Shown: in pieces, positions 5,938 through 35,865 of the stretch
Layout of the letters: each line of letters starts with the position of its first letter
Position numbering within the stretch: position 1 is the first letter of the stretch
Virus record (IMG/VR): IMGVR_UViG_3300029309_000115
Span: 1-37,732 of that record
From: a virus
DNA: 37,732 bases
Strand: one strand, 5' to 3'
The notes under the pieces: model-generated
Told to the model about the DNA's origin: nothing
Seen by the model: the letters and a program-made list of their open reading frames with translations, nothing else
Database searches by the model: none
Position numbers and translations under genes: made by a program

Positions 5938-7794
5938 ATGAAACTCTTAGATTTATTTTCTGGTATTGGTGGCTTTAGTTTAGGTGCAGAATATAATAAT
6001 ATAGAAACAATAGGATTTGTAGAAAAAGATGCATTTTGTCAAAAAGTATTACGAAAACATTGGCCTAACACACCAATCATTGGAGATATAAGAGATGTCA
6101 AAAGAGAAACCTTTGAGTCAGTTGACATTGTTTCCGGAGGATTCCCCTGTCAACCCTTCTCAGTCGCAGGAAAACGAAGAGGAACAGACGATGACCGCTA
6201 TCTCTGGGATGAAACTATTAGAGTCGTGTCCCTTTACAAACCCCGATGGTTTGTTGGCGAAAATGTTGACGGACTTGTTAACATCCAAAACGGCATGGTA
6301 CTCAGACAGGTGCAAACTGATTTGGAAAAAGAGGGTTTCCAAGTCCAATGTCTTGTTATTCCAGCTAGCGGCATCGGTGCATGGCACCAAAGAAAAAGAG
6401 TCTGGATTGTGGGCCACTCCCAACACGATGGATCATCTACCTCCCAGGAGCAAGGAGGGTACAATCAAACTTCAACAAGGCCACAGGAAGGGGAGAACTC
6501 GTCCATCAAATCTGAGGGAGCAAGTAGATCCAGAGACAATGGCAATGTATCGCACACCAACGACAATGGACTCGAAGGAAGACAGTTTGAAACACGCAAC
6601 GAAGATGATGCAAGGAAAGACAACGAGAGCCTCTGGAGAAAGAGTACAAATAACATTAGCAGATCAAGTGATGATAGAGGAAATAAAACGAAACCCAGAG
6701 TTGATGAAGACATATCAAGACCACACGATGGTAACAAGGAAAAACCTACCACCACCACAGATGTTTGTGAAGTATCTCAAGAGTCAAACGACAGTGGCAC
6801 AATTGAACAAGCAAGTAGAGATAAAGAAAACAACGATAGAACATTGGTTCAGAAAAGACAAATGTTTCAGTTATCCAAGTCCAGAGGATTGGGAGATGAT
6901 AAAACCTCATCTGAAAGAAATAAAATACGACAAGGAGATGACAACACTGTATCCCATCGAGTGGACTCCAACGATGTATCCAACACCCACGACTCAAGAC
7001 TCACGAATCGGCCCCAACAACATCAAGGGAAGTCAACACAGGAAAGAGAGGGGCAACCCAGCTCTAGCCGACAAAATTTTATTTCCAAGTCCAACAGCAA
7101 CGAATGTGAACACACCTCAACCAGACAGAGTAGAAAGAACAAAATCTGGAGGTTTTATTCTGAGGAAAAAGAACAAGCCTCATATGACCTATGGAGCAAG
7201 ACTTCAAGATGCGATGATGTATCTGGAGAACAAGAAGATGTATCCAACTCCCAACACCAACGATGGAGCAACGAATCCATCAGAGGACATAGAGAATTGG
7301 GAGAAAAGAGCAGAGAAAAAGAAAAAAGAGGGAATCAATCTGCATTACGCTCTACGACATGCAGTTCAGAAAGAGGAACAGATGAAGATGTATCCAACTC
7401 CTGTAGCGAAAGACAATTGCTCAGAGAGTCTGGAAAGTTGGGAGAGAAGAGCGAAGAAACACAAGGCTCAAGGGAAAACAATACCCAAGGCTTTGAGAAT
7501 ACAAGTGCAAGAGGAAAGCAAGATGTTTCCTACACCAACACAAAGAGATTACAAGGACACAACAGTAAGCCAAGGTTATCAGAGGAGGAACTCAGATTCA
7601 CTTCCGGTAAAGATGATGAAAAACAATACACCTGGTGGGAAACTCAATCCAACATTTGTGGAGTTCCTGATGGGGTATCCTATGGATTGGACAAAGGTAG
7701 AGTAGGTAGGATTAAGTCTTTGGGTAACTCAATAGTTCCCCAGATAGCTTATCAAATTTTTAAGTCAATTAAACAAGCAGAGGAGGTAAAATGA
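5938..7794 (+). CDS. dcm: C5-cytosine DNA methyltransferase
   Basis: Transfers a methyl group from SAM to cytosine C5 in DNA. Motif I DLFSGIGGFSLG (5-16), motif IV GGFPCQPFS with catalytic C71, motif VI ENV (108-110), motif VIII QRKRVWIV (151-158) and motif X SLGNSIVPQ (594-602) are all present. The protein is 618 residues, far longer than a standard Dcm (320-450). Residues from about 163 to 560 are Ser/Asn/Asp/Arg-rich and nearly free of hydrophobic residues, with degenerate VSNTxxxR repeats. This is an improbable globular target-recognition domain. The same stretch is open in the +1 frame as a more protein-like sequence (see 6095-7705). The mature enzyme could therefore be this frame alone, or a frameshifted composite. 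The last bases overlap the next start (ATGA). Confidence 0.85.
   Translation: MKLLDLFSGIGGFSLGAEYNNIETIGFVEKDAFCQKVLRKHWPNTPIIGDIRDVKRETFESVDIVSGGFPCQPFSVAGKRRGTDDDRYLWDETIRVVSLYKPRWFVGENVDGLVNIQNGMVLRQVQTDLEKEGFQVQCLVIPASGIGAWHQRKRVWIVGHSQHDGSSTSQEQGGYNQTSTRPQEGENSSIKSEGASRSRDNGNVSHTNDNGLEGRQFETRNEDDARKDNESLWRKSTNNISRSSDDRGNKTKPRVDEDISRPHDGNKEKPTTTTDVCEVSQESNDSGTIEQASRDKENNDRTLVQKRQMFQLSKSRGLGDDKTSSERNKIRQGDDNTVSHRVDSNDVSNTHDSRLTNRPQQHQGKSTQEREGQPSSSRQNFISKSNSNECEHTSTRQSRKNKIWRFYSEEKEQASYDLWSKTSRCDDVSGEQEDVSNSQHQRWSNESIRGHRELGEKSREKEKRGNQSALRSTTCSSERGTDEDVSNSCSERQLLRESGKLGEKSEETQGSRENNTQGFENTSARGKQDVSYTNTKRLQGHNSKPRLSEEELRFTSGKDDEKQYTWWETQSNICGVPDGVSYGLDKGRVGRIKSLGNSIVPQIAYQIFKSIKQAEEVK
6095..7705 (+). 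CDS. Second long reading frame inside the methyltransferase gene (Dcm C-terminal-like)
   Basis: 536 codons, wholly inside the methyltransferase gene in the +1 frame. GGAG lies 9 bases before the ATG. The central part is globular in composition. Residues 222-272 contain a helix-turn-helix-like KKTTIEHWFRKDKCFSYPS segment of a kind I associate with phage DNA methylases. Seven copies of a (M/L/W)-aromatic-x-(T/S)-P motif occur (106, 151, 294, 329, 382, 432, 477). The end carries KLNPTFVEFLMGYPMDW (516-532), which resembles the C-terminal region of a Dcm family that has it in frame with the catalytic motifs. It may be an independent overprinted protein, or the true target-recognition region reached by frameshifting. 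The first 100 residues could simply be a shadow of conserved Dcm motifs. Confidence 0.6.
   Translation: MSKEKPLSQLTLFPEDSPVNPSQSQENEEEQTMTAISGMKLLESCPFTNPDGLLAKMLTDLLTSKTAWYSDRCKLIWKKRVSKSNVLLFQLAASVHGTKEKESGLWATPNTMDHLPPRSKEGTIKLQQGHRKGRTRPSNLREQVDPETMAMYRTPTTMDSKEDSLKHATKMMQGKTTRASGERVQITLADQVMIEEIKRNPELMKTYQDHTMVTRKNLPPPQMFVKYLKSQTTVAQLNKQVEIKKTTIEHWFRKDKCFSYPSPEDWEMIKPHLKEIKYDKEMTTLYPIEWTPTMYPTPTTQDSRIGPNNIKGSQHRKERGNPALADKILFPSPTATNVNTPQPDRVERTKSGGFILRKKNKPHMTYGARLQDAMMYLENKKMYPTPNTNDGATNPSEDIENWEKRAEKKKKEGINLHYALRHAVQKEEQMKMYPTPVAKDNCSESLESWERRAKKHKAQGKTIPKALRIQVQEESKMFPTPTQRDYKDTTVSQGYQRRNSDSLPVKMMKNNTPGGKLNPTFVEFLMGYPMDWTKVE
7238..7522 (+). repeat. Tandem 45-50-codon repeat in the second methyltransferase frame
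   Basis: Two adjacent units (7238-7387 and 7388-7522) each begin with an M-Y-P-T-P motif and carry W-E-x-R-A-x-K followed by Lys-rich residues and V-Q-x-E. A third MFPTP motif follows at 7523. Similarity is easier to see in the +1 frame than in the dcm frame, where only LGEKS and VSN/VSY are shared. This suggests duplication of a unit that is meaningful in the +1 frame. Confidence 0.6.
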
Positions 7795-7967
7795 CTAAAA
7801 ATAAAAATATGATATGTGAAGAATGTAACGGTAATGGATATGTTCGCACAGATCAAAACAAACCAATAGCCGCAGATAACACACATATCTGTTCAGTATG
7901 TCAAGGCGAGGGAACAGTTGGTGATGCAATAAGGTTTGAGGACAATGAAGTACAATATTGGTGTTAG
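7791..7967 (+). CDS. DnaJ-type CxxCxGxG zinc-finger protein
   Basis: 58 residues with two CxxCxGxG motifs, CEECNGNG (9-16) and CSVCQGEG (34-41), about 25 residues apart. This is one complete zinc site of the DnaJ cysteine-rich type without J or substrate domains. AGAGGAGG lies just upstream of the ATG at 7791. The start overlaps the dcm stop, and the end overlaps the sulfotransferase start region. Likely zinc-binding; the partner is unknown. DnaJ-like fingers occur as free-standing or embedded modules in several marine phages. Confidence 0.8.
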   Translation: MTKNKNMICEECNGNGYVRTDQNKPIAADNTHICSVCQGEGTVGDAIRFEDNEVQYWC

Positions 7968-8676
7968 TGGCCTTCCTAATTTTTTAGTTGTAGGCACTCA
8001 AAAGGGTGGTACTACAAGTTTGTATCATCTGTTGCGTAGACATTCAGGAATGTTTCTTAGCACACCAAAAGAGACGCATTATTTTAGTAAAAACTATGAT
8101 AAACCTTTATCTTGGTATCAAGAACATTTTTTACAAGCACACCCTTCACAGTTGCGAGGTGAAGTAACACCTTTTTACCTATTTCATAAACACGCACCAG
8201 AAAGAATATATGATAATGTACCCAATGCACGGCTCATTGTCCTCTTACGAGATCCTGTGGAGCGAGCTATCTCACAGTATTTTCACGCAAAAAATAAAGG
8301 TTACGAGACTTTAGGTATTGAAGATGCTTTTGCTGCAGAACCACATAGAATAAATCGATCTGACTACAGCTACCAAAAACATTCTTATTTAAGTAGAAGT
8401 AGATACGATGAGCAATTAAAAAGATATAAGAAATTCTTTTCTGATAAACAAATTTTAATTATGCGAAGTGAAGATTTGTTTACAGATACATTAAATTGTT
8501 GGAAGAAATTGTTGCATTTTATTGGTGTAAGTCCTATTGACTTACCTTGTCCTTTGCCTTTTTATAACAAAGGTAAAAAAGACACAGTGCCAAAAACATT
8601 ATGTAACAAACTAAAAGACGAGTTGATTAATACTTATAATTGGCTTGAAGATAAATATAAAATAAATTGGAGTTAA
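7945..8676 (+). CDS. Sulfotransferase (heparan sulfate/NodH-like, Sulfotransfer_1 type)
   Basis: Predicted to move sulfate from PAPS to a sugar or other hydroxyl/amine acceptor. The PAPS 5'-phosphosulfate loop is VGTQKGGTTSLYHLL (K20), followed by PKETHYF (41-47). The 3'-phosphate strand is RLIVLLRDPVERAISQYFH (R102, S110). The 243-residue length is normal for a single-domain enzyme. I place the start at ATG 7945 with GAGG 3 bases before it; a TTG at 7936 is in frame but has no usable ribosome site. It is cytosolic, with no signal peptide. It is followed by a DUF2061 membrane protein and an oxygenase, forming a small modification cassette. The acceptor is unknown. Confidence 0.9.
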   Translation: MKYNIGVSGLPNFLVVGTQKGGTTSLYHLLRRHSGMFLSTPKETHYFSKNYDKPLSWYQEHFLQAHPSQLRGEVTPFYLFHKHAPERIYDNVPNARLIVLLRDPVERAISQYFHAKNKGYETLGIEDAFAAEPHRINRSDYSYQKHSYLSRSRYDEQLKRYKKFFSDKQILIMRSEDLFTDTLNCWKKLLHFIGVSPIDLPCPLPFYNKGKKDTVPKTLCNKLKDELINTYNWLEDKYKINWS

Positions 8677-17139: not shown

Positions 17140-18615
17140 ATGAAAAGTGATTTACTCACGACAGATAAACTGAGGCTCAAAGTAGAATCATTATGGATCC
17201 AACATGTAAAATTGTGTCAAGATCATTTTCTATATTTTGTACAAGAGGTCTGGCCAGATTTTATATGTCGTAAAGAAAAAGATAAAAGTAAGTGGGGCCA
17301 TCATCAGATTATTGCTCACGAGTTTACTGATATAGCTAAAGATAAAAAAGGGAGGCTCGTAATAAATATGCCTCCTAGGCATACTAAATCTGAATTTGCA
17401 TCTGTGTATTTTCCTGCTTGGGTTATTGGTAAGTATCCCAAAATGAAAATTATGCAGGTTTCTCACAACACAGAACTTGCAGTAAGGTTTGGTTCTAAGG
17501 TTCGAAACATAATTGATTCCCCAGAATATAAACAAATCTTTGGCGATGTGAAACTTCGTGAGGACTCCAAAGCCAAAGGTCGTTGGGAAACTAATCAAGG
17601 TGGTGAGTATTATGCAGCAGGAGTTGGAGCATCAATCACGGGTCGTGGTGCGGACTTGTTGATTATTGATGACCCACACACAGAACAAGACTCTATGTCT
17701 GACACTGCAATGGAAAGAGCTTATGAGTGGTATACTTCTGGTCCACGACAAAGGTTACAACCAGGAGGTAGTATCTTGGTTGTAATGACAAGATGGGCAG
17801 AAGATGATTTGACAGGTAGATTATTGAAGGCTCAAGCTGAACCTAAAGCAGATAAGTGGAGACAGATTTCATTTCCCGCGATCCTCGACTCAGGGAACCC
17901 AGTATGGCCAGAGTATTGGGAGTTAGAAGAATTAGAAAAGATTAAGTCAAGTATACCTATTCGTAACTGGTCAGCTCAGTATATGCAAAACCCAACGAGT
18001 GAAGAGGGTGCAATTTTAAAACGAGAATGGTGGCAAGCTTGGAAAGGACACATACCAAATTTAATGCATGTTATACAAAGTTATGATACTGCTTTTAGTA
18101 AAAAAGAAACAGCAGATTATTCTGCGATTACGACTTGGGGTATTTTTTTTCCAGAAGAAGGTGGGTCACCACATATGATTTTGTTAGATGCTATCAAAGG
18201 TAAATTTGATTTTCCAGAACTTAAAGCAGTGGCTTTAGAGCAAAACAAATATTGGGAACCAGAGACAACAATCATTGAACAAAAAGCAAGTGGTGAACCT
18301 TTGACTCAAGAGTTTAGACGTATGGGTATACCTGTCGTTCCCTTTGTACCTAGTCGTGGTAATGACAAACATACTCGTGTAAATGCGTGTGCCCCTGTTT
18401 TTGAAAGTGGTCAGGTATGGTATCCGTTTGGTGAGAAGTTTGCTGACGATGTGATAGATGAATGTGCCGCTTTTCCAAATGGTGCAAATGATGATTATGT
18501 TGATTCAACCACCCAAGCTGTGTTAAGGTATAGGCAAGGCAACTTTATTGAGTTATACTCAGATTATGTAGATTTAGAAGAATTACCCCCAAAGGAATAT
18601 AAATATTATGAGTAG
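17140..18615 (+). CDS. terL: Terminase large subunit
   Basis: 491 residues; ATP-driven DNA packaging motor with headful or cos nuclease. Walker A MPPRHTKSE (77-85), Walker B LLIIDD (173-178), and a coupling segment VVMTRWAEDDLTGRL. The RNase H-like nuclease has SYDTAFSKKETADYS (D316, D326) and NDDYVDSTTQA (D455). AAGG lies shortly before the ATG. Its product acts with the small subunit at 11598 and the portal at 18970. Confidence 0.96.
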   Translation: MKSDLLTTDKLRLKVESLWIQHVKLCQDHFLYFVQEVWPDFICRKEKDKSKWGHHQIIAHEFTDIAKDKKGRLVINMPPRHTKSEFASVYFPAWVIGKYPKMKIMQVSHNTELAVRFGSKVRNIIDSPEYKQIFGDVKLREDSKAKGRWETNQGGEYYAAGVGASITGRGADLLIIDDPHTEQDSMSDTAMERAYEWYTSGPRQRLQPGGSILVVMTRWAEDDLTGRLLKAQAEPKADKWRQISFPAILDSGNPVWPEYWELEELEKIKSSIPIRNWSAQYMQNPTSEEGAILKREWWQAWKGHIPNLMHVIQSYDTAFSKKETADYSAITTWGIFFPEEGGSPHMILLDAIKGKFDFPELKAVALEQNKYWEPETTIIEQKASGEPLTQEFRRMGIPVVPFVPSRGNDKHTRVNACAPVFESGQVWYPFGEKFADDVIDECAAFPNGANDDYVDSTTQAVLRYRQGNFIELYSDYVDLEELPPKEYKYYE

Positions 18616-18970
18616 CGAAACTGAAGAAGAATTAAAACGAGCTAAAAAATTTAAATTGTTAAGTAAAGCATTTGGTACCCCTGGGTCATTAGAGGATCTT
18701 GTCGCAGGAGCTTTTAGACAACCAAGAAGATCTAAACAAAAAATATTACCTATATTTAGACAAAAACGAATTGATCCTAGACCAAGTAAGAAACAATATG
18801 ATATTGTTGGTCGAAAAGTTCCAGACATAGAATCAATAACTGAATCAATAGTAGAAGATGAGTTTACACCAAAGGTAATTGTACCTGATATTAGACGAGT
18901 TAAACAAGGTGATTTTATTCAAAGTCGCGGGTGTAAGTTAGCTCGTAAAAAGAAAACAAGGATAACATAA
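18608..18970 (+). CDS. Hypothetical basic protein between terL and portal
   Basis: 120 residues. N-terminal acidic helix, basic Pro/Arg-rich middle (RQPRRSKQKILPIFRQKR) and C-terminus with GCKLARKKKTR. Similar short Arg/Lys-tailed proteins with a G-C/G-x-A-R motif sit among marine phage head genes. Probably a virion or assembly protein; function unknown. It overlaps terL by 8 bases and shares its stop with the portal start. Confidence 0.6.
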   Translation: MSSETEEELKRAKKFKLLSKAFGTPGSLEDLVAGAFRQPRRSKQKILPIFRQKRIDPRPSKKQYDIVGRKVPDIESITESIVEDEFTPKVIVPDIRRVKQGDFIQSRGCKLARKKKTRIT

Positions 18971-21300
18971 TGGATGAAGAAGAAAATTTAGAAGAACAGG
19001 TTGAACCTGTAGACGTGGCTGTTGAAGAGCCAACTGACGAACCAATGGAAGAGGAGGCTCCTCCTCAAGAAGAAAATTTCTACAAAAACTTAGCAGAAGA
19101 TATGGACGATTCTGTACTAACATCCATATCGTCTGACCTTATCTCTGAATTTAAAAAAGATAAAGAGTCCCGTGGTGATTGGGAGAAGTCTTATATTTCT
19201 GGATTAGATTTACTAGGGTTTAAGTATAGAGATGAAGGGCAACCGTTCAGAGGAGCGAGTGGCGTGACCCATCCCCTTTTATCCGAGGCTGTTACTCAAT
19301 TTCAAGCACAAGCTTACAAAGAGTTACTACCACCTGATGGTCCTGTAAGAACACAAGTGGTGGGTGATATGTCAAAAGAAAAAGAGGATCAAGCTTCTCG
19401 TGTAAAAGAATTTATGAACTATATGCTTATGGACAAGATGGAGGAGTACACTCCAGAGTTTGACCAACTGTTATTTTATTTACCTTTAGCAGGTAGTGCT
19501 TTCAAAAAAATCTATTACGATGAAACTCGTGCCAGAGCAGTAAGTAAGTTTGTTCCTGCTGAGGATTTAGTTGTACCTTACTATGCGAGTGATCTGATGG
19601 ACTGTGAACGAATCACGCATGTAATTAAGATGACAGAGAATGATGTATTAAAAAAACAAAAAGGTGGTTTTTATCGTGATGTAGAGTTGATGCCTACACA
19701 AGAAGAGAATGAGGTTGATGAAAAATACAATGAAATGGAAGGAATCACGAGCCAAGGACCAAGGGACTATCAGTTCAATATTCTTGAGATGCATGTTGAT
19801 TTAGATTTAGAAGAGTATGAGAAACCTAATGCAGATAAGAATGTAAAAGTTCCATACATTGTAACTATCGATGAAGGTTCACAAGAGGTTTTAAGCATCT
19901 ATCGCAACTTTAAACCTGACGATGAGATGTTAAATAGAAACGAATACTTCGTTCATTACAAATTTTTACCAGGTTTAGGCTTTTATGGCTTTGGTTTGAT
20001 ACATATGATTGGTGGTTTGAGTAAAACTGCCACCTCTGCACTAAGACAATTGCTTGATGCAGGTACTTTAAGTAACTTACCCGCTGGTTTTAAGTCAAGA
20101 GGTATACGAATTAGGGATGATGAGCAACCTTTTCAACCCGGTGAGTTCAGAGATGTTGATGCTCCGGGTGGAAATATCAAAGATCAGTTCCAAATTTTGC
20201 CTTTTAAAGAGCCAAGTAATGTACTTTTTCAACTTTTAGGCTTTGTTGTACAAGCAGGACAACGATTTGCTGCAATTGCTGATATGGCAGTAGGAAATGA
20301 TGCTCAAAATAGAGCTGTTGGCACTACAATTGCTCTCTTGGAACGTGGTTCTAGGGTAATGAGTGCTATTCATAAGCGTTGTTACTATGCAATGCGACAA
20401 GAATTTAGACTTTTGGCTAAAGTTTTTGGTACTTACCTACCACCAGTCTATCCATACTCAGTTTATGGGGGAAATAGGCTGATAAAAATTGCAGATTTTA
20501 GTGATGAAGTTGATGTTATACCTGTAGCAGACCCAAATATATTTTCTATGGCACAAAGAGTGACTTTAGCTCAGACTCAATTGCAAATTGCTCAAAGTGC
20601 ACCTCAATTACACAATATTAGAGAGGCTTTTCGTAGAGTTTACGAGTCATTAGGTACAAAACAGGTGGATAATCTGCTTAAACCAGAAAAACCACCAATT
20701 CCTAAAGATCCAGCGATTGAAAATGCAGAAGCTCTACGTATGGAAGTGCCTACTGCCTTTCCTCAACAGAATCACGATGCCCATATTATTTCGCATGCCG
20801 CCTTTATCAAAACAAGAATGGTGCAAATTAATCCTATGGTATATGCTTTGTTACAAGCTCACATTTCTGAACACATTTCAATGAAAGCAAGAGCACAAGT
20901 TGTAGCAACAATAGGAGAAGAGCGTCCTGATTTGCTTAAATTACAAAAAACGAACCCTGCCGCATTTCAAATTGAATTTGATTCAATGGTTTCTTTGAGA
21001 GTTATGGCTTTAACTCAAGAATTACAACAAGCAGAAGAAATGACTGAAAAAGGTGATCCACTTGTAGCACTTAAACAAAGAGAACTTGATTTACGTGCTA
21101 TGGATATGCAAAGAAAATCAGGAGAATTTATGACAGAAGAACAACGAAAAGCAAATGAATTTGAACAACGTATTGATCTTGACAAAATGAAAAGAGAAGA
21201 TGCTGAAGAAGCTTCAAAAGAAAGAATACGAGTTGCAGATGATAAGCTTGGTTTAAATGCAGTAAAATTAGGTTTACAGGATTTAAAAAATGAAGGGTAA
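18970..21300 (+). CDS. Portal protein
   Basis: 776 residues. Forms the dodecameric ring through which DNA enters, with terminase docking on it. After an acidic N-terminus, residues about 75-130 have the GQPFRGASGVTHPLLSEAV and FQAQAYKELLPPDGPV blocks seen in marine podoviral portals. The stem/crown region is followed by a long coiled, Glu/Lys/Arg-rich C-terminus (about 680-776), which could form a barrel as in P22. The large size is within the podoviral range (700 or more). Identity rests on these blocks and on gene order (terL, portal, scaffold, capsid). Confidence 0.85.
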   Translation: MDEEENLEEQVEPVDVAVEEPTDEPMEEEAPPQEENFYKNLAEDMDDSVLTSISSDLISEFKKDKESRGDWEKSYISGLDLLGFKYRDEGQPFRGASGVTHPLLSEAVTQFQAQAYKELLPPDGPVRTQVVGDMSKEKEDQASRVKEFMNYMLMDKMEEYTPEFDQLLFYLPLAGSAFKKIYYDETRARAVSKFVPAEDLVVPYYASDLMDCERITHVIKMTENDVLKKQKGGFYRDVELMPTQEENEVDEKYNEMEGITSQGPRDYQFNILEMHVDLDLEEYEKPNADKNVKVPYIVTIDEGSQEVLSIYRNFKPDDEMLNRNEYFVHYKFLPGLGFYGFGLIHMIGGLSKTATSALRQLLDAGTLSNLPAGFKSRGIRIRDDEQPFQPGEFRDVDAPGGNIKDQFQILPFKEPSNVLFQLLGFVVQAGQRFAAIADMAVGNDAQNRAVGTTIALLERGSRVMSAIHKRCYYAMRQEFRLLAKVFGTYLPPVYPYSVYGGNRLIKIADFSDEVDVIPVADPNIFSMAQRVTLAQTQLQIAQSAPQLHNIREAFRRVYESLGTKQVDNLLKPEKPPIPKDPAIENAEALRMEVPTAFPQQNHDAHIISHAAFIKTRMVQINPMVYALLQAHISEHISMKARAQVVATIGEERPDLLKLQKTNPAAFQIEFDSMVSLRVMALTQELQQAEEMTEKGDPLVALKQRELDLRAMDMQRKSGEFMTEEQRKANEFEQRIDLDKMKREDAEEASKERIRVADDKLGLNAVKLGLQDLKNEG

Positions 21301-21457
21301 AGCTTTTGGCCCTCCACCAGAGAGAGGCCCACAACCGCAAGGTATGAAAGATGGTGATTTTATTGGTTGCCCTCATAGAGAAAATGGTGTAAAAAGCGAT
21401 ATAAAGGGTATAAAAGATATCCAAGTAAAAGGTAAAAAATTTATAGGAATTAAGTGA
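21290..21457 (+). CDS. Small conserved phage protein after the portal
   Basis: 55 residues. Starts MKGKAFGPPPERGPQPQG; the second half has IGCPHRENGVKSDIKGIKDI and ends KGKKFIGIK. I know this C-P-H-R-E-x-G ... I-K-G-x-K-x-I-Q-V-K-G-x-K-F pattern from marine phage gene neighbourhoods next to portal genes; no function is assigned. It overlaps the portal end by 11 bases and the methyltransferase start by 4. Confidence 0.65.
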   Translation: MKGKAFGPPPERGPQPQGMKDGDFIGCPHRENGVKSDIKGIKDIQVKGKKFIGIK

Positions 21458-22053
21458 TAAAAGGCGATTCGTCAGAATACCATCTGATTACAAAACATAT
21501 AGGAAACTTAAAAATTGATAGAGCCACGTTAACTTGTGAGATAGGTTTACGAGAAGGGTTAGGTTCTAAAATTATTATGGATGCAGTTCGTGAGCATAAA
21601 CCTAATCTTTATAAGCATGTTGCAATTGATCCATACAATAATTTAAATTATCAACATTACGACAAATCAGACTCGTATACAGCAGATTATACTGAAGATA
21701 TGAAACAGAAGACGGTATCTTATCTCTATCAGAACTATCAAGAATTTGATTTTTATCATATGACTGACGAATATTATTTTGAAACTATGGGTGATGGTCA
21801 TCAGTTTTCAATTGAGGGTAATGTTATGTTGTATGGTTTATACAAAGTGGTACATCTTGATGGCCCACATACAACATATGCAGTGCTTGAAGAACTAAAA
21901 TTTTTTATCCCACGAATGGATGAAGAAGGTCTAATAATCATTGATGATTACCAACACCTTGAGATGGGTATTGTCGAAATGCTCCTAAAGACTTATAATT
22001 TTAATGTTGCTGAGAAAGGTGACAATAAAATTATTTTTAAAAAGGAGATATAA
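21454..22053 (+). CDS. Class I SAM-dependent methyltransferase (Methyltransf_24-like)
   Basis: 199 residues with a GTG start and AGGA 5 bases upstream. Motif I is CEIGLREGLGS (28-38), the acidic end of strand 2 is AIDPY (57-61), VHLDGPHTTYAVLEEL is at about 133-148, and GLIIIDDYQHLE follows. This H-x-D-x-x-H ... E-x-G-x-I-I-I-D-D layout is that of Methyltransf_24 O-methyltransferases that act on sugars and small molecules. It is inserted between portal and holin genes without its own promoter, i.e. moron-like cargo in a late operon. Confidence 0.8.
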   Translation: MIKGDSSEYHLITKHIGNLKIDRATLTCEIGLREGLGSKIIMDAVREHKPNLYKHVAIDPYNNLNYQHYDKSDSYTADYTEDMKQKTVSYLYQNYQEFDFYHMTDEYYFETMGDGHQFSIEGNVMLYGLYKVVHLDGPHTTYAVLEELKFFIPRMDEEGLIIIDDYQHLEMGIVEMLLKTYNFNVAEKGDNKIIFKKEI

Positions 22054-22738: not shown

Positions 22739-23412
22739 AAATAATCTGTGTTAGGATTGGAGACTTGTATGGTCCTCAATACGAGGAATATATAGAGTCT
22801 AAACTTTCAGAGTATGAGATTATTTGGGTGAGAGAGCCTATACAACCAAACATAAATTTACAATGGAATAAAATGTTTGGTATGACATTAGATACAGATG
22901 AGCCAGTCTGTGTGATGGATATTGATGTTCTCTTAGTAAATGATTACAAAAAAATCTTTGAATATCCAATAGAACACGGACAATTTCTTGCAGCACCTGG
23001 GTGGTGGAGAGAACCACCTCCAGAGGCTAAAGGTAGATTTACTATCAATGGTGGTTTTCAAAAATACTATCCAAAAGAGGCTAAATATATTTACGAAAAA
23101 TTTATGAAACAACCAGAATATTGGCAGACTAAGTATGTCAAAGATGGTTATGCATCTCCACCATTTTATGGAGAGCAACACTACATTGAAGATTCTGTAA
23201 ATGAAAAATTACAATTAGTAAAACTACCAAACTCTTGGGTAACAAGATTTGATGAAAATTTATTATATCATTTTACTTTGAAATACACACAAGCTTGTGG
23301 CAATCTGTATCTGATCAACGATGATGGTTTTCACAAAGATTTAAAGTTTGTGCATTTTGCATCTAAGGGTAATTTTCCACACAAGTGGGACAAATATGAC
23401 AAATTCAAATAA
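22735..23412 (+). CDS. Glycosyltransferase-like protein
   Basis: 225 residues. VCVMDIDVLLVNDY contains a DxD metal/nucleotide-sugar motif (D62, D64) after a Rossmann-like start. FTINGGFQKYYPKEAKYIY and a late HFASKG follow the order of GT-A fold enzymes resembling GT8/stellar-type transferases. The donor sugar is unknown. It stands immediately before a sulfotransferase with a 17-base overlap, suggesting that a sugar is added and then sulfated; that link is inference. Confidence 0.65.
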   Translation: MKIICVRIGDLYGPQYEEYIESKLSEYEIIWVREPIQPNINLQWNKMFGMTLDTDEPVCVMDIDVLLVNDYKKIFEYPIEHGQFLAAPGWWREPPPEAKGRFTINGGFQKYYPKEAKYIYEKFMKQPEYWQTKYVKDGYASPPFYGEQHYIEDSVNEKLQLVKLPNSWVTRFDENLLYHFTLKYTQACGNLYLINDDGFHKDLKFVHFASKGNFPHKWDKYDKFK

Positions 23413-24055
23413 TTTTTTTTGGATTCACATAAAAAAATCAGCAGGTCAATCTTTAAGGCAATTACTACAACCTCACTATTTACTTACAGATAGGAAAAAA
23501 GGTTCAGAGGGATTCACAGAATCTAATTACAAATTTTGGAATGATATTTTGAATAACTATAGGACACCTCTAGGTGATTTACAATATAAGCGAGCTTTGT
23601 TTGCAGCACGACATTTATATCCAGATAAGTGGTCTAAGTTATTCTCGTTTGCTTTTGTAAGAGAGCCAGTATCTAGATGTTTGAGTATGTATAGATATTT
23701 TCAAAGTGAAATAAAAGACGAAGAGGAAAAATTTAGTACGTTTCTTAAACTTATCAAAGAACCTTATGATTTAAGGTTTGCAACACATACTAATCCAACT
23801 TGGAATGATGTCACTGATGATAATGATGAACTGTGTGTAAGCAAAGTATATCGTTTAGATGATATGATGCCTGCTTTACAAGAGGTTTACGAAAAATGTA
23901 ATTTAAGTTTTAAAAAAAAAGAAATATTTGTAAATACAACAAAAGAACAAAAAATTCATAAAGATTTGGCTGTTGCTTTTGAATCAGAAATACAAAAAAT
24001 TTATGAAAAGGACTTTATACTTTATTATCAGCTTTACAGTAAAGTTTCCAAATGA
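23396..24055 (+). CDS. Sulfotransferase (Sulfotransfer_2-like)
   Basis: 219 residues from ATG 23396. FWIHIKKSAGQSLRQLL (9-25) is the PAPS loop of the carbohydrate-sulfotransferase type (H-x-x-K-x-A-G-x-S). FSFAFVREPVSRCLSMYRYF (83-102) is the 3'-phosphate site (R89, S93). It is a different subfamily from those at 7945 and 30350. It is preceded by a glycosyltransferase, so a sugar acceptor is likely. Its start lies inside the preceding gene. No signal peptide, hence cytosolic. Confidence 0.85.
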   Translation: MTNSNNFFWIHIKKSAGQSLRQLLQPHYLLTDRKKGSEGFTESNYKFWNDILNNYRTPLGDLQYKRALFAARHLYPDKWSKLFSFAFVREPVSRCLSMYRYFQSEIKDEEEKFSTFLKLIKEPYDLRFATHTNPTWNDVTDDNDELCVSKVYRLDDMMPALQEVYEKCNLSFKKKEIFVNTTKEQKIHKDLAVAFESEIQKIYEKDFILYYQLYSKVSK

Positions 24056-26781: not shown

Positions 26782-27693
26782 ATGGCTATTTCAAGATCAC
26801 AATTGGTCAAAGAGCTAGAGCCTGGTCTTAATGCTCTCTTTGGCTTAGAATATAATCGTTATGAAAACCAACATGCAGAAATCTTTGTATCAGAGGCATC
26901 AGATAGAGCTTTCGAAGAAGAAGTAATGCTAACAGGTTTCGGTAGTGCTCCAGTAAAAGAAGAAGGTAGCTCGGTCACTTTTGATCAAGCAACTGAATCT
27001 TTCACTGCTAGATACACTCACGAAACAATTGCAATGGCATTTGCTATCACTGAAGAAGCTATTGAAGATAATCTATACGACAGACTAGCTGCAAGATATA
27101 CAAGAGCATTAGCTCGTTCAATGGCAAATACTAAACAAGTAAAAGCTGCAAATGTACTTAACAATGCATTTAATTCAAGCTTTGCTGGTGGTGATGGTGT
27201 TGAACTTTGTTCTGATGTTCATCCAATCGCAACTGGTGGTACATTCAGAAATGAACTATCAACAGCAGCTGATTTATCTGAAACATCACTAGAGCAGTCT
27301 TTAATTGACATTTCTGCTTTCGTTGATGAAAGAGGACTTAAAATTGCAATGCAAGGTGTTAAACTGATTATTCCAAAAGAACTTCAGTTTACTGCTGAAA
27401 GAATTTTAAGAACACCTCAGAGAGTAGGTACTGCTGATAATGACATCAATGCTATGGCTTCTATGGGTATGATCCCACAAGGCTATAGAGTTAATCATTA
27501 TCTAACAGATACTGATGCTTTCTTCATTATGACTGATGCTCCTAATGGAATGAAACAATTCGTTAGAGCACCAATCAAAACTGCAATCGAAGGTGACTTT
27601 GATACTGGTAACGTCAGATTTAAAGCAAGAGAAAGATATTCTTTTGGTTTCTCTGATCCAAGAGGTATCTTTGGTTCACCTGGAGCTGCATAG
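26782..27693 (+). CDS. Major capsid protein
   Basis: 303 residues, probable HK97 fold. N-terminal helix (SQLVKELEPGLNALFGLEY), E-loop-like SSVTFDQATESFTARY, spine helix AITEEAIEDNLYDRLAARYT, Pro/Lys domain LIIPKELQFTAERILRTPQR and C-terminal FKARERYSFGFSDPRGIFGS. R-x-R-x-S-x-G-F at the end is common to Mu-gpT-like/HK97 capsid proteins. It is followed by a strong terminator, consistent with high expression. No N-terminal prodomain of the HK97 protease type is obvious. Confidence 0.88.
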   Translation: MAISRSQLVKELEPGLNALFGLEYNRYENQHAEIFVSEASDRAFEEEVMLTGFGSAPVKEEGSSVTFDQATESFTARYTHETIAMAFAITEEAIEDNLYDRLAARYTRALARSMANTKQVKAANVLNNAFNSSFAGGDGVELCSDVHPIATGGTFRNELSTAADLSETSLEQSLIDISAFVDERGLKIAMQGVKLIIPKELQFTAERILRTPQRVGTADNDINAMASMGMIPQGYRVNHYLTDTDAFFIMTDAPNGMKQFVRAPIKTAIEGDFDTGNVRFKARERYSFGFSDPRGIFGSPGAA

Positions 27694-28330: not shown

Positions 28331-28639
28331 ATGAACTCTGATGTAGGTGCAAAAACATTAACAGCAACAGGCACAATACAATCTGGAAGAACTAGACTAT
28401 TATCTATTTATTATGTTGGAGCATCCTCTGCGGGAACTCTTACATTTAAAGATGGAGGAGCAAGTGGTACACAAAAATTAGTTATCACTACACCAGCAGG
28501 AAGTGCTGCTGATCAATATCAGATAGATATCCCTCTAGACGGAATTGTATTTAAAACAGATATGCATTTAACAATAGCAAATGTCACATCTGTTACTGTT
28601 TTTGTTACACCAGTGACTGGTGATACTGACAATGGATAA
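28331..28639 (+). CDS. Hypothetical beta-rich structural protein
   Basis: 102 residues. TGTIQSGRTRLLSIYYVGAS, LTFKDGGASGTQKLVITTPA and a final VTSVTVFVTPV suggest a small beta sandwich of the kind found as virion surface domains. GGAGAAAAAT precedes the ATG. The next gene starts inside its 3' end. Confidence 0.6.
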   Translation: MNSDVGAKTLTATGTIQSGRTRLLSIYYVGASSAGTLTFKDGGASGTQKLVITTPAGSAADQYQIDIPLDGIVFKTDMHLTIANVTSVTVFVTPVTGDTDNG

Positions 28640-28952
28640 TAGTTACTATGATGATTTAGACCTATTTGGTTTAGCGAAAGGTGGTATGCCTGCTCGCAAC
28701 AAAAAAAACTATAGGCCTACAAAGTCAGGTGCTGGAATGACTGAAGCTGGGGTAAAAGCGTATAGACGCAAAAACCCTGGCTCCAAGTTAAAAACTGCTG
28801 TAACTGGTAAAGTAAAAAAGGGTAGCAAAGCTGCTAAACGAAGAAAGTCTTATTGTTCTAGAAGTGCAGGACAAGCAAGAATGCATAATATTAATTGTAG
28901 AAAAACACCTAACAAAAGAATTTGTCAGGCGAGAAGGAGATGGAAATGTTAG
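28632..28952 (+). CDS. Basic Cys-containing virion protein (DUF6321-like)
   Basis: 106 residues. GAGMTEAGVKAYRRKNPGSK, LKTAVTGKVKKGSKAAKRRK and SYCSRSAGQ form the conserved block I associate with DUF6321. Four cysteines near the end (YCS, NCRK, ICQ, KC-stop) could bind zinc or form disulfides. The high Lys/Arg content suggests binding to packaged DNA. ATG 28632 is preferred over a TTG further up. Function not established. Confidence 0.7.
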   Translation: MDNSYYDDLDLFGLAKGGMPARNKKNYRPTKSGAGMTEAGVKAYRRKNPGSKLKTAVTGKVKKGSKAAKRRKSYCSRSAGQARMHNINCRKTPNKRICQARRRWKC

Positions 28953-29614: not shown

Positions 29615-29694
29615 GTAGAGGTAATATGACACAACAAATTAACAACCCTCCTCAAAAAAAGAAATTTAGAAAAGTCAAAAAAAAGAAAAAATGA
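29605..29694 (+). CDS. 29-residue Lys-rich peptide
   Basis: MAISRGNMTQQINNPP then a tail of Lys/Arg. The ISRG(N/Q)M start is shared by short genes in other marine phages. It overlaps the peptidase end by 10 bases and the oxygenase start by 4 (ATGA). Possibly a packaged nucleic-acid-binding peptide. Confidence 0.5.
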   Translation: MAISRGNMTQQINNPPQKKKFRKVKKKKK

Positions 29695-30353
29695 AAAAAA
29701 TAGAAATCATGCCCTCATACATTTATGAGTATGATATGCCTGAGGACTTAACAAAACAAGCTTTAGAACTTGCAGAAAATATTAAATACAAACCTACAAA
29801 TGCTAGACCAAATCAAAGTTCTTTACAGATGGATGTTGACAAACATTTACCCAAGGCAACCAAAATAGTATTGGATAAAATGTATGAAATTGTAGAACAA
29901 AACAATTTCTCCATTAAAAAACTTAAAGTAGTCAATGCTCATGCAAACAAAACGAGATGTTGGGAATATCATACTCCTCATAACCACGACAATACAGTAT
30001 TCAGTTGTATATGGTATTTGAACACTTGTGAATGCGACACTTTGTTTTACAGATTAAATGATTGGATGGATCAATGGGTAAATATCTATCCTCAACGAAT
30101 TAAGGGTGGTGGTATGGGAGGTACTTGGGTACTTAAATATCTTGATTGGTGTGATGAAGAAGGCAAAAATTTAGTTAAAAATTTTAAACCTTTTGTCATA
30201 CATAAACAACCTAGCCTTGCAGGTAAGTTAATAATTTTTCCTGCGAAAATGTTACATTTGACAAATAAAAATAAAAGTTTGCATTCTAGGTATACAATTA
30301 CGTATAATGTTTTTCCAACAGAGTTTGGTCAATCAACAATGACTGTAAAATGA
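29691..30353 (+). CDS. 2OG-Fe(II) oxygenase (2OG-FeII_Oxy_5-like)
   Basis: 220 residues. EYHTPHNHDNTVFSCIWYLN gives iron ligands H97/H99 in an H-x-H form, and GKLIIFPAKMLHLT gives the distal H189, followed by R200 in SRYTITYNVFP. This P-H-x-H ... x-W-Y-L ... L-I-I-F-P-x-x-x-x-H ... R-x-x-x-x-x-N order matches the putative 2OG-Fe(II) oxygenase family PF13759. It differs from the H-x-D enzyme at 8893, so two unrelated oxygenases are present. Immediately followed by a sulfotransferase, as the first is preceded by one. Substrate unknown. Confidence 0.75.
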   Translation: MKKIEIMPSYIYEYDMPEDLTKQALELAENIKYKPTNARPNQSSLQMDVDKHLPKATKIVLDKMYEIVEQNNFSIKKLKVVNAHANKTRCWEYHTPHNHDNTVFSCIWYLNTCECDTLFYRLNDWMDQWVNIYPQRIKGGGMGGTWVLKYLDWCDEEGKNLVKNFKPFVIHKQPSLAGKLIIFPAKMLHLTNKNKSLHSRYTITYNVFPTEFGQSTMTVK

Positions 30354-30970
30354 TTTTTTTTATATCTTATCCTAAATCTGGTAGAACTTGGTGTCGTTAC
30401 ATTTTTTATGAGTATGCCAAAAGAGCAAAAACAATAAGAAAAAATTTAATCTTTAGTCACATTACATTTGGTAATTCACCAGAAGCTGAAGACCAAGGTA
30501 AAAAATGGTTAGAAAAAGACACAGTTAGAATACTTTTAAAAAGAAATGATTTAGATGTATTAGTATCCTTGTATCACGATCAAATTCAAAGAGTTCCTGG
30601 TGTTGCAGAAAAATACAAAACGATTGATGAGTTTGTTTTAGATAAAGCAAAGCATCTTGACGAATTTACAAGGCAATCAAGACAACTGAAATACAAATAT
30701 GAAATTTGTTACGAGCTTATGTTAAGAAACCCTTACACAGCATTTTGGCCTGCAATGAAAATAGTATTTGGAGATGTTGATATTGAAAAATACAGGGAGG
30801 CAATTGAGTTTTGTGATTTTAATAATATGTATAAATTAGAGAGAGAGGGTAAAATAAACCTACGAGGAAGAGGTCTTATTTATAAAACACGAAAAGGTAA
30901 ATTAGGAAGTTATAAAGAAGAACTACAACAAGAAACCATAGAACTCTTAAGGAATAGACATAACAAATAG
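30350..30970 (+). CDS. Sulfotransferase (cytosolic SULT-like)
   Basis: 206 residues. FFISYPKSGRTWCRYIFYE (3-21) is the SULT-type PAPS loop (YPKSGxTW). FSHIT (35-39) holds the candidate catalytic His, RILLKRNDLDVLVSLYHDQ (60-78) is the 3'-phosphate region, and the end has a KTRKGKLGSYKEEL segment like the SULT R-K-G-x-x-G-D-W-K motif. It is the third sulfotransferase in the window and of a third subtype. It overlaps the oxygenase by 4 bases. Acceptor unknown. Confidence 0.85.
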   Translation: MIFFISYPKSGRTWCRYIFYEYAKRAKTIRKNLIFSHITFGNSPEAEDQGKKWLEKDTVRILLKRNDLDVLVSLYHDQIQRVPGVAEKYKTIDEFVLDKAKHLDEFTRQSRQLKYKYEICYELMLRNPYTAFWPAMKIVFGDVDIEKYREAIEFCDFNNMYKLEREGKINLRGRGLIYKTRKGKLGSYKEELQQETIELLRNRHNK

Positions 30971-31000: not shown

Positions 31001-31513
31001 ATGACAAAATTATGTGCTAGAGGTAAAGCTGCCGCCAAAAGAAAATTTAAGGTATATCCTTCCGCCTATGCAAATGCATATGCATCAAAGATTTGTGCAG
31101 GTAAAATTAAAGACCCAAGTGGTGTAAAACGAAAAGATTTTAAAGGACCTAAACCTGCATCTGCTAATGAGGGCAAGTTTATGAATGAAATAGAAGTAGA
31201 AAGACTGGAAAGGCAACTAGACAAAGATAACAAAAGTAGAGCTTTCCAAGGAAAACCAGCAGGGGCACCAGGTCAGGGGCGTTATGTCAGAAGAAGGGAC
31301 TTGTTAAAAAAGAAAGCCAGTTTGAAAAAGCAAAAAAATTATACACCATCCAAAAGAGGACTTAATACAAGTGATGTAGAAGAACTTATGGATGCTATGC
31401 CAAAATATAATGTTGGTGGTCACAGTGTCATGGGTTCACCAGTATCTGTTGATGTTGATGGTGATACATTAGAAAATCCATCTGCTTCAGTTTATTATAA
31501 AGATATATTATAA
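31001..31513 (+). CDS. Basic virion-type protein with YYKDIL tail
   Basis: 170 residues from ATG 31001 (AAGGAG 6 bases before). LCARGKAAAKRKFKVYPSAY and ANAYASKICAGKIK form a block conserved in marine phages; the rest is Lys/Arg/Gly-rich linker. The last residues SASVYYKDIL match the end of the next gene product. Probably packaged or head-associated; function unknown. Confidence 0.65.
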   Translation: MTKLCARGKAAAKRKFKVYPSAYANAYASKICAGKIKDPSGVKRKDFKGPKPASANEGKFMNEIEVERLERQLDKDNKSRAFQGKPAGAPGQGRYVRRRDLLKKKASLKKQKNYTPSKRGLNTSDVEELMDAMPKYNVGGHSVMGSPVSVDVDGDTLENPSASVYYKDIL

Positions 31514-32136
31514 TGGGCCTCAAGAAGTGGTTTTCAGAAAATTGGGTTGACATTGGCTCGCCCAAAAAAGGTGGTAAGCACCAAAAATGTGGGCGAAAAA
31601 AAGCTGATGGTTCAAAAAGAAAATACCCAAAATGTGTACCAGCTTCAAAAGCTGCAAGAATGTCAGAATCACAAAAACGAAGTGCAGTCAAAAGAAAAAG
31701 AGCAAAAGCTCAAGGAGTTGGTGGTAAACCAACAAATGTAAAAACATTTGCTAATGAAGGAGAATTTGCAACAAAACAAAAAAAAAGAAAAACATATTCA
31801 CTAAAACCTAAATTTGATTTCAGTGAAGTAAATCTAGGCGATGTCAAAACAAGTTTTAGAAGACCTGCTGTAAAATTACAAAAAAAAAACAAAAAATTGC
31901 CTGATGTTTCAGTTGAATTATTTAAAGAATATGAAGACATAAAAACACCTTATTATGAAGATAAAAAACAATCAAAGGGTGTGACTGGCACTATTGGTGG
32001 TAAATATGGAAGAGTAAGAGGTCAACTAAAAAAAGATAACAGATCAGGTAAAATATCAAGGCAACTCAGTGTTGAAGGTAATTTTGAGTTTGCTAAAGGT
32101 GGGTTGATAAGTACCTATTATAAGGATATACTGTAG
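31513..32136 (+). CDS. Basic virion-type protein with YYKDIL tail
   Basis: 207 residues. The start GLKKWFSENWVDIGSPKKGG, HQKCGRKKADGSKRKYPKC and SAVKRKRAKAQGVGGKPTNV is a conserved block seen in many cyanophages and pelagiphages (DUF5872-like, to my recollection). The middle is basic and disordered-looking; it ends GGLISTYYKDIL. Cys/Lys pattern suggests nucleic-acid or metal binding. Start and stop overlap by 1 base with the preceding gene. Confidence 0.65.
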   Translation: MGLKKWFSENWVDIGSPKKGGKHQKCGRKKADGSKRKYPKCVPASKAARMSESQKRSAVKRKRAKAQGVGGKPTNVKTFANEGEFATKQKKRKTYSLKPKFDFSEVNLGDVKTSFRRPAVKLQKKNKKLPDVSVELFKEYEDIKTPYYEDKKQSKGVTGTIGGKYGRVRGQLKKDNRSGKISRQLSVEGNFEFAKGGLISTYYKDIL

Positions 32137-32806: not shown

Positions 32807-33496
32807 ATGACTACATCGGGAACCACTGCATTTGATCTTAATATCGATGATATCATTCAAGAGGCATATGAACGATGTGCGGCAAGAACTAACAGTGGGT
32901 ATGACTTAAAATCGGCAAGGCGAAGTTTAAATATTCTTTTCTCAGAATGGGGAAACCGAGGGGTTCACCTTTGGAAGGTAGCAAACCAAGAACAATTACT
33001 GACAGCCGGGACAGCGACTTACTCAGCACCGAGCAATGCGAACGACATATTAGAGGCATACATAAGCACAACTACGGGTCAATCAACCACTACGAACGAT
33101 GTTTCGCTGACAAAGATAAGTAGAAGTGAATATGCCGCTTTACCAAATAAAGGTTCAAGAGGTCAACCAAGTCAATATTATGTTGACAGATTGACAACAC
33201 CTACAATAACTTTATATCAAACTCCAGATGCCAATACATATACATATTTAAAATATTATTATTTAAAAAAAATAGAAGATTCTGGAGCATATACTAACAC
33301 TGCTGATGTTGTTTTTAGATTTATACCTTGTATGGTAGCAGGATTGGCATATTACTTGTCTATGAAGTATAATCCACAAGTAGTGCAACAAAATAAACTT
33401 ATATATGAAGATGAGCTTTCACGAGCTTTGAATGAGGATGGTCAAAGAACATCTGTATATATAACACCACAAACTTATTATCCACAGGGGTTCTAA
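32807..33496 (+). CDS. Head-tail connector protein (P22 gp4-like)
   Basis: 229 residues. LNIDDIIQEAYERCAARTNS, SARRSLNILFSEWGNRGVHLW, ISRSEYAALPNKGSRGQPSQ and VVFRFIPCMVAGLAYYLSMK make the pattern of a widespread marine phage connector, similar in layout to P22 gp4. It would seal the portal after packaging. The assignment is from pattern and position among neck genes. Confidence 0.7.
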   Translation: MTTSGTTAFDLNIDDIIQEAYERCAARTNSGYDLKSARRSLNILFSEWGNRGVHLWKVANQEQLLTAGTATYSAPSNANDILEAYISTTTGQSTTTNDVSLTKISRSEYAALPNKGSRGQPSQYYVDRLTTPTITLYQTPDANTYTYLKYYYLKKIEDSGAYTNTADVVFRFIPCMVAGLAYYLSMKYNPQVVQQNKLIYEDELSRALNEDGQRTSVYITPQTYYPQGF

Positions 33497-33497
33497 A

Positions 33498-34490
33498 ATG
33501 AAGACTATGAAAATATTTAAAAAAGCTACTGGAGGTTATCTTTCTGATTTAGAAAAATCAAAGCCAGAACTTTTCAAAACAATCAATGAGTATAGAACAA
33601 GATTAGCAGGTCTAGATAATGGAGCTGATTTACAAAGAACATTTGATAAAAGAGCAAATATTCAATATGCAGCTACAAAAAATATGCCTGAGCTTGAAAG
33701 AGATGCTTATATAAAATCAGTTGAAAAAGAGTTTGCTACTGCCACTGATAAACAATTTGAGGATCTACAAAAAGATTTGAAAAGTGAAAAAAGATTTGTT
33801 CCAACTTACAGATATGCTGCTGATCAAACTTCTTTTGGGCCAACATCTGGATATTACAGAAACTTACAAGACGAAATTGATCAAAAAAGAAAATCTTTAG
33901 AAGGTTTACAAATTACTGAAAAAAAAACAGGAACAAGAACACCTTATATTAGAGAATATAGTCGAGGTAATGTTGGTCTAGCAGGTTATCAGCCACCACC
34001 TCCTTCAAAACCTGTTTATGAATTACCAAAGGGATATAGCAAAGAATTTAGAACTGCGGGAACAGGAGCTTTTGGTCAAGGTGCAGGACGAACAGCTTTT
34101 GGACAACAAGGTCAAAATACAGGGCCTTATGGTACATATTCTCCTAGTGATTATTATGTGAAAGGTTCCCCAGAAAAATATACTTACAGTGTTACCAGAG
34201 CTCAAAAAGCTGGTGATACTGACTACGACAAAGTTATGTCAGAAATAGGAAGACTAGAAAAAAGGCACAAATACAGAAATTTATATAACACAAGCTCACC
34301 ATCAGTTTCAAGTGCAAATATATATTCTAGTATGGGTATGGGTGCAGCACAAAACCCACCACCAAGAAGAAATAAAATTGAAGCTCGAGGAGCTTTTTCA
34401 AGAATTCAACCAAGACAAATGAATAAAGGTGGCGAAATAAAAGGTAAAGGTAAAGCAATAAGAGGTTTTAAATTTGGTGGTGTTAAATAA
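33498..34490 (+). CDS. Hypothetical virion protein with Gly/Lys tail
   Basis: 330 residues. Helical charged first half; Gly/Tyr/Pro-rich second half (GYQPPPPSKPVYELPKGYS; FGQGAGRTAFGQQGQNTGPY); basic tail NKGGEIKGKGKAIRGFKF. The KGKGKAxRG ending is found on many marine phage small virion proteins. Likely an internal virion or ejection protein; no domain recognised. Confidence 0.6.
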   Translation: MKTMKIFKKATGGYLSDLEKSKPELFKTINEYRTRLAGLDNGADLQRTFDKRANIQYAATKNMPELERDAYIKSVEKEFATATDKQFEDLQKDLKSEKRFVPTYRYAADQTSFGPTSGYYRNLQDEIDQKRKSLEGLQITEKKTGTRTPYIREYSRGNVGLAGYQPPPPSKPVYELPKGYSKEFRTAGTGAFGQGAGRTAFGQQGQNTGPYGTYSPSDYYVKGSPEKYTYSVTRAQKAGDTDYDKVMSEIGRLEKRHKYRNLYNTSSPSVSSANIYSSMGMGAAQNPPPRRNKIEARGAFSRIQPRQMNKGGEIKGKGKAIRGFKFGGVK

Positions 34491-35211: not shown

Positions 35212-35865
35212 ATGGCTATAACTTATTCAGATTTTTTAACTCAGGTTCGTAACTACACAGAGGTAGATTCTAATGTTTTATCTGATTCACTGTTAGATCA
35301 ATTTATCAGAAATATGGAATTAGACATTGCAGGAAAAGTTGATTTTGATGATCTAAGAAAATATGCAACATCAACTACTAACACAAATTCAAAATTTATT
35401 TTGTTACCAGACGACTTGATATATTTAAGGTCTGTCCAAACAATTATTTCAAATGTGCGAACTTTTATTGAAAAAAGAGACACTAGTTTTATATCAGAAT
35501 TTAATGGCAGTGGTGCTACAGGTGAGCCTAAATATTATGCTAATTGGAATGAAAGTACAATTATTTTAGCACCTACACCTGCTGTAGATACAATTACTGT
35601 ACAAATAAATTATATTATTGATCCTCCACATTTTACATCTACAAATACAACATATTTGTCAACTTACCAAGAGTCCTTACTTTTGAATGGAGTTTTAACA
35701 GAATGCTTTCGTTTTTTAAAAGGGCCCCCAGACCTATACAAAGTGTATTTGGAGAAGTATAATGAAGAAATACAAGCATTTGCTCTACAACAAATGGGGC
35801 AAAGAAGAAGAGGGCAATACGAAGATGGGGTACCTAGAATTCAAGTTCCTTCTCCTTCAGCTTAA
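35212..35865 (+). CDS. Phage adaptor (neck) protein
   Basis: 217 residues. ITYSDFLTQVRNYTEVDSNV, LLDQFIRNMELDIAGKVDFD, FILLPDDLIYLRSV and a C-terminal YQESLLLNGVLTECFRFLK match adaptor-type proteins that follow connectors in marine phages (DUF6682-like pattern). Helix-strand-helix layout like the 32807 product, so the two may stack in the neck. Confidence 0.65.
   Translation: MAITYSDFLTQVRNYTEVDSNVLSDSLLDQFIRNMELDIAGKVDFDDLRKYATSTTNTNSKFILLPDDLIYLRSVQTIISNVRTFIEKRDTSFISEFNGSGATGEPKYYANWNESTIILAPTPAVDTITVQINYIIDPPHFTSTNTTYLSTYQESLLLNGVLTECFRFLKGPPDLYKVYLEKYNEEIQAFALQQMGQRRRGQYEDGVPRIQVPSPSA

Follow-up and report, generated by a model that had tools for sequence, protein, structure and literature searches.

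Short C-terminal tags shared by unrelated small proteins of HTVC023P-type pelagiphages as candidate docking signals in virion assembly

Two adjacent late genes of a pelagiphage encode proteins that end in the same six residues, YYKDIL, which raises the question of what such a shared ending does on two otherwise different proteins. The genes lie in a virus record of 37,732 bases that was analysed over its full length (the window). Its phage is of the HTVC023P type, a group that is among the most abundant phage groups of the ocean according to the accessible text of PMC12753301. The capsid protein of the window matches the Pfam family Phage_capsid_4 and is 80.9% identical to the HTVC023P capsid protein, and both phages have the late-gene order terminase–portal–GroES–scaffold–capsid–P1–P2–adaptor, where P1 and P2 are the two genes in question. 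The structural context on the + strand consists of the terminase large subunit (17140..18615; phrog_38, PF17289, PF03237), the portal protein (18970..21300; phrog_1216), the major capsid protein (26782..27693; PF25209), which is also a possible tag partner, and an adaptor-family protein (32807..33496; PF24175). Two genes of the SU10_adaptor Pfam family stand near one another (32807-33496 and 35212-35865). A small Cys/Arg-rich DUF6321 protein (28620-28952) has a homologue in the late block of 8/8 mapped genomes, a Methyltransf_24 gene (21454-22053) follows the tagged gene beside the portal gene, and a 2OG-Fe(II) oxygenase gene (29691-30353) is found shortly upstream of the P1 block. Three separate sulfotransferase-like genes are present (7936-8676, 23348-24055 and 30350-30970), two of them inserted among the late genes. 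Elsewhere two long ORFs overlap on the same strand (+): a cytosine methylase ORF of 618 aa (5938-7794; PF00145 over residues 1-304) encloses, in another frame, a 536-aa ORF (6095-7705) without a Pfam match.

P1 (31001..31513, + strand) encodes a basic protein of 170 aa with a conserved N-terminal part of 53 aa (phrog_27331), a variable middle and the C-terminus ...NPSASVYYKDIL; its ORF opens at TTG 30986 and the first ATG is at 31001. P2 (31513..32136, + strand) encodes a basic protein of 207 aa, likewise with a conserved N-terminal part (80 aa, phrog_23735) and a variable middle, ending in ...GGLISTYYKDIL. The translated ORFs and a pattern scan place YYKDIL plus stop at 31493..31513 and 32116..32136 on the + strand, confirming the identical ends reported in the preliminary description; these two ends, both on the + strand, are also the only matches in the window to a degenerate YYKD[IL]-stop pattern. 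By composition, identical 6-residue tails are expected 1.7e-4 times over all pairs of the 71 window ORFs and 4.9e-6 times over adjacent ORF pairs only, and 1 of 20,000 shuffles gave any identical pair; these composition-based figures were computed after the fact. The DNA of tag and stop is identical at 17 of 21 positions and the four differences are all synonymous (AAA/AAG, TTA/CTG, TAA/TAG). Directly upstream of the tag only 2 of 18 nucleotides agree, and 31 of 90 over the longer stretch, which rules out a recent copying of the entire 3' end. A recent duplication of the 3' end was the explanation that the preliminary description had set against its own, together with absence of the tag elsewhere; the former is rejected by the unrelated DNA before the tag, and the tags proved to be widespread.

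The bodies of P1 and P2 are not significantly alike either (hhalign probability 0.5%, E 0.13; blastp E about 0.1, the weak resemblance being that of Lys-rich N-termini), as the description of the two proteins as otherwise different had implied, although these sequence comparisons leave open a very remote relation. In the AlphaFold2 models of P1 and P2 confidence is low for the whole chain (pTM 0.25 and 0.28) as well as for the tail, and the low-confidence tail regions are consistent with disorder. A PDB sequence search gave no match for the capsid, portal, P1 and P2 N-termini and only chance-level matches for the adaptor (E 0.33 or more).

The YYKDIL ends belong to one of at least three tag classes that occur in HTVC023P-type relatives on many non-homologous small proteins. 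Class A has the pattern YYx[DG][ILM][ILM], with tails such as YYKDLLK, YYKGIL, YYGGMIDV and YYKDLM; it is found in P1, P2 and other proteins and sometimes lies within a 28-residue module, for example GSYIKSEIDGKKISNKSYEKYYKGMI. Class B is described by GxAIRGxxFKGVF (as in GSGAAIRGTKFKGVF) and class C by GCKLxRxKKTRIT (as in RGCGAVMPDRRKKTRYS and KKKTRIT), and smaller tail types are D (GKNS) and E (MGLFGRR). More recurring tails, which look like additional tag types, were seen in loci L001-L080: GGLLVTPKLAKRG[YF], EGGLVVDLFKW and DDGGEVVISSNVDKDLL. The window contains six tagged genes, two per class, which end at 18970 (C), 21457 (B), 31513 and 32136 (A), 32798 (C) and 34490 (B). Besides P1 and P2 these are, all on the + strand, a 120 aa protein between terminase and portal (18608..18970; class C tail ...RGCKLARKKKTRIT), a 55 aa protein directly after the portal gene (21290..21457; class B-like tail ...IQVKGKKFIGIK), the basic 219 aa protein P3 (32139..32798; C-terminus AKGGFKKKTPIY, class C tail ...GGFKKKTPIY) and a 330 aa protein between the adaptor and tail genes (33498..34490; class B tail ...GKGKAIRGFKFGGVK). 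An early hint that Gly/Lys-type tails on the following proteins form a second tag class was thus right, as the tails of P3 and the 330 aa protein show. P1, P2, P3, the 330 aa protein and six tagged proteins from other loci have no Pfam match, and NCBIfam and PADLOC gave no match for the first four.

The comparison of C-termini across related phages that had been proposed shows that the tag classes recur widely in IMG/VR relatives. Counting those of the window, IMG/VR yielded 115 different sequences related to P1 and 132 related to P2. In both sets the N-terminus is strongly conserved and the middle variable, and many of the C-termini belong to one of a few recurring types. Tails of class A were found in 14 protein clusters (two false by eye), of class B in 7 and of class C in 13, and newly fetched loci with the strict class B pattern gave 12 clusters, one large cluster probably being joined by Lys-rich sequence; clustering was by single-linkage blastp, which makes the family counts approximate. 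Genes were called as the longest non-overlapping ORFs and tag classes were assigned by regular expressions. Among 40 class A P1-P2 pairs inspected, of 51, only the window's pair has identical tails, and the general feature is the tag class rather than exact tail identity.

The sharing is confined to the very end of the proteins. Among the 258 clusters formed by 999 genes, from the window and from loci that were picked solely for a similar portal, 29 pairs of unrelated clusters have C-terminal 5-mers in common and 24 pairs have 6-mers in common, against one cluster pair sharing 5-mers at each offset of 20, 25, 30, 35 and 40 upstream of the terminus. No cluster pair shared k-mers at any offset in the controls, which were ten phages or phage regions with 608 genes in 483 clusters. 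Of the 147 exact tag cores found in the portal- and P1/P2-selected loci, 146 lie within four residues of the C-terminus; the control phages have none. Looser regular expressions, applied to 748 ORFs of ten control phages, gave four class A-like matches, none convincing by eye. Chance as the source of the shared tails is rejected by the C-terminal k-mer sharing, the controls and the expectation from composition.

The tag could also be a DNA or RNA element, such as a promoter, a processing site or a translational-coupling signal at gene junctions. The P1 stop overlaps the P2 start in a TAATG junction, which places the tag just before the next start codon and would suit such a role. However, third codon positions vary freely while the tag residues hold: all differences between the window pair are synonymous, and in class B all four bases occur at the third position of the Gly and the Val codons. 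In locus L111, where adjacent genes have near-identical 28-residue tails, the differences fall 3, 1 and 11 times on codon positions 1, 2 and 3, which indicates purifying selection on the peptide. On this synonymous variation in the window pair, L111 and class B a signal in DNA or RNA is rejected, and we find it scarcely credible. Another proposal is that short conserved 3' ends promote copying by recombination and bring no more than an unspecific advantage, solubility for example. The near-identical L111 tails would be expected from it, and class A tails from one genome agree at 3.78 of 6 residues, compared to 3.28 in shuffles, none of 5000 of which reached the observed value; this comparison is confounded by relatedness. 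The codon-position split in L111 and the residues that hold while codons vary argue against ends that are merely carried along, and we regard this explanation as improbable.

The tags are exchanged as modules. In a set that includes loci reached through the tags themselves, 134 distinct P1 proteins comprise 71 of class A, 18 of B, 12 of C, 7 of D and 26 unclassified, and 147 distinct P2 proteins comprise 72 of A, 13 of B, 5 of C, 3 of E and 54 unclassified. P1 orthologues that are identical over the first 55 residues can have a tail of class A, B or D, and a difference in class is seen in 219 of the 608 P1 pairs with at least 95% N-terminal identity; such identical N-termini with different classes indicate that tags are swapped as modules. 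P2 is steadier and rarely swaps (0 of 53 pairs at the same identity). A genome does not keep to one class, as follows from the 118 same-genome P1-P2 pairs: 51 are A/A, and the remaining classified pairs mostly combine two classes, with 10 B/A and 9 C/B against 1 C/C.

Scans of IMG/VR with stop-anchored patterns, made independently of any gene, place the tags on contigs with structural genes: among the new loci listed this holds for 92 of 94 matches to YYKD[IL] and 64 of 68 matches to FKGVF that end called genes. The four class B exceptions include one true tag adjoining P1, and three look like chance. Among the listed matches that do not end a called gene, 17 of 23 (class A) and 23 of 43 (class B) are without a structural homologue, and most of the remaining ones end tag-like ORFs that the gene caller had dropped. 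The strict class B pattern occurs in at least 120 viral stretches of IMG/VR and in none of 84,980 prokaryote genomes (species). A structural homologue (terminase, portal, capsid, adaptor or other) is present in 66 of 67 newly fetched strict class B loci, and the remaining one has P1 and P2 only. The closing codon of the 70 matches in these loci is always TAA or TAG, although TGA and TGG would also have fitted the pattern. The preliminary description had also offered a protease or chaperone tag, and nothing in the analysis points to either. A degron or processing signal, by which the free C-terminus would expose the proteins to removal or destruction by a protease, does find a point in its favour in the typical ligands of bacterial proteases, which are free hydrophobic or basic C-terminal ends. 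But the existence of at least three unrelated classes, their restriction to the structural block of one lineage and the absence of the strict class B pattern from the prokaryote genomes make this distinctly improbable.

HTVC027P, of the same group as HTVC023P, has no clear tag in 68 ORFs, DSL-LC04 has one in 117 ORFs and 023Pt_psg01 has one real tag in 52 ORFs; the cases of HTVC027P and DSL-LC04 indicate that the tags are dispensable. Phages of the same capsid family (43-62% identity) that infect other hosts, CRP-901, Pag-Yong1, QDWS535 and GB2A, have no tags, from which it follows that the tags are one lineage's add-on and are not needed for the capsid fold. In a tblastn search of the phage collection with tags of 21-28 residues, very short queries, B and C gave no match and A two weak ones. 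The hosts of the untagged relatives, Roseobacter, Caulobacter, cyanobacteria and Alcaligenes, would agree with an action after injection, in which tagged proteins would pass into the cell and use the tag to bind a protein of the SAR11 host. Yet SAR11 phages of other groups (HTVC010P, HTVC008M, HTVC019P, HTVC106P) have no convincing tag, and we consider such an action highly improbable.

The position of the tagged genes was mapped in eight genomes or near-genomes of 12-61 kb, comprising the window, HTVC023P and six IMG/VR virus records fetched piecewise, of which G009 and G003 lack the last 1.1 and 2.2 kb, respectively. Among their 700 ORFs 34 are tagged; 34/34 are on the major strand and 34/34 lie between the terminase or portal gene and the first tail genes. 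In HTVC023P, whose host is Candidatus Pelagibacter HTCC1062, gp30, gp32, gp51, gp52 and gp53 bear tags. The usual slot of class C is between terminase and portal and that of class B follows the portal gene; class A, and also B and C, usually stands before or after the adaptor gene. Over all loci together classes are not strictly tied to slots. In some loci the P1-P2 block adjoins the portal gene, and P1 is still often tagged there. Tagged genes stand on either side of the portal, GroES and adaptor genes rather than around that of the capsid, and in none of the eight maps does a tagged gene lie between scaffold and capsid. Of the earlier proposal of a sorting signal on virion-type proteins that directs packaging into the head, the shared protein-level tail on genes of the virion module is well supported, while 'head' may be too narrow in view of this position by the portal and tail-adaptor genes. 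Tagged proteins are shorter than untagged ones and their bodies carry a net charge of +10 versus 0 per 100 aa (122 versus 780 proteins, P 2e-42); they are strongly basic and probably disordered.

The tags are thus real, act at the protein level, stand at the C-terminus, are modular, belong to one phage lineage and are encoded only in the structural gene block. For their function we hold, with little more than even confidence, that they are C-terminal peptides recognised by the phage which would recruit minor proteins during virion assembly. Each class would be a short linear motif in which a small, basic and mostly disordered protein ends, and its binder a component of the virion or of an assembly intermediate, with the portal, adaptor, scaffold or major capsid protein as candidates; we infer a phage-encoded partner. 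Unrelated and rapidly replaced minor proteins would in this way join the particle as it grows, and their basic bodies could touch packaged DNA there. Dispensability in relatives, the rarity of class swaps in P2 and the lack of tagged genes between scaffold and capsid count against such docking. A variant restricts the tags to assembly only: small basic helpers would be brought to the portal or prohead, or to phage GroES and host GroEL, and be gone before maturity. The genes around portal, GroES and adaptor and the small size and dispensability of the proteins between relatives would fit; however, no specific link between tag and GroES was found, and strongly basic bodies suit contact with DNA in a filled head, which leaves this variant rather unlikely.

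The tags were compared with known systems of terminal targeting. Bacterial sorting tags of the CTERM type consist of a motif, a transmembrane helix and a basic end, and no hydrophobic stretch of helix length is seen in the pelagiphage tails when the tail lists are read by eye. According to the accessible text of PMC9026906, the capsid-targeting sequence (CTS) of the T4 internal proteins IPI, IPII and IPIII is N-terminal, its first 10 residues suffice, and it is thought to let the phage load various proteins. The likeness lies in a short terminal peptide on several different, basic, fast-changing small phage proteins (PMC9026906). The CTS differs in being an N-terminal propeptide that gp21 cleaves and that works together with the T4 core, whereas the pelagiphage tags are C-terminal, of several classes and not known to be cleaved. 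Encapsulin cargo-loading peptides are also short and C-terminal, and in the available portions of PMC8346489 they direct cargo entry into an HK97-fold shell; capsid binding by the pelagiphage tags is only putative. Encapsulin cargo consists of enzymes or ferritin-like proteins, and the TVGSL-like motif named for some of it is absent from every tag class in the tail lists read by eye. Membership in the T4 CTS and in the encapsulin peptides fails on position and motif, respectively, and the likeness is one in principle only. In the internal protein Hdf of phage P1, which contacts DNA, the C-terminal part fastens the protein to the inside of the capsid, as far as the accessible part of PMC12810830 describes it, but this is a 69-residue helical domain of one protein, compared to tags of 6-28 residues on many. 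A literature search that included the tag strings and covered few subscription journals found no earlier account of shared C-terminal tags in these phages, and none was found described in the accessible text of PMC9599517, PMC12753301, PMC11598899 and PMC12404659.

A further step, possible but held only tentatively, is that the classes form a C-terminal address code, for which the portal-adaptor-capsid assembly would have a separate docking site per class. The phage could then swap, add or lose minor virion proteins by attaching one of few peptides, and the code, if true, would be a plug-in system for virion cargo. Most late genes of these phages are still unnamed, and a recognisable tag would place many unannotated protein families in one functional class, allow their association with the virion to be predicted and provide a handle by which foreign proteins could be loaded into these particles. 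The tags may offer a simple account of how minor virion proteins are exchanged while the particle still assembles.
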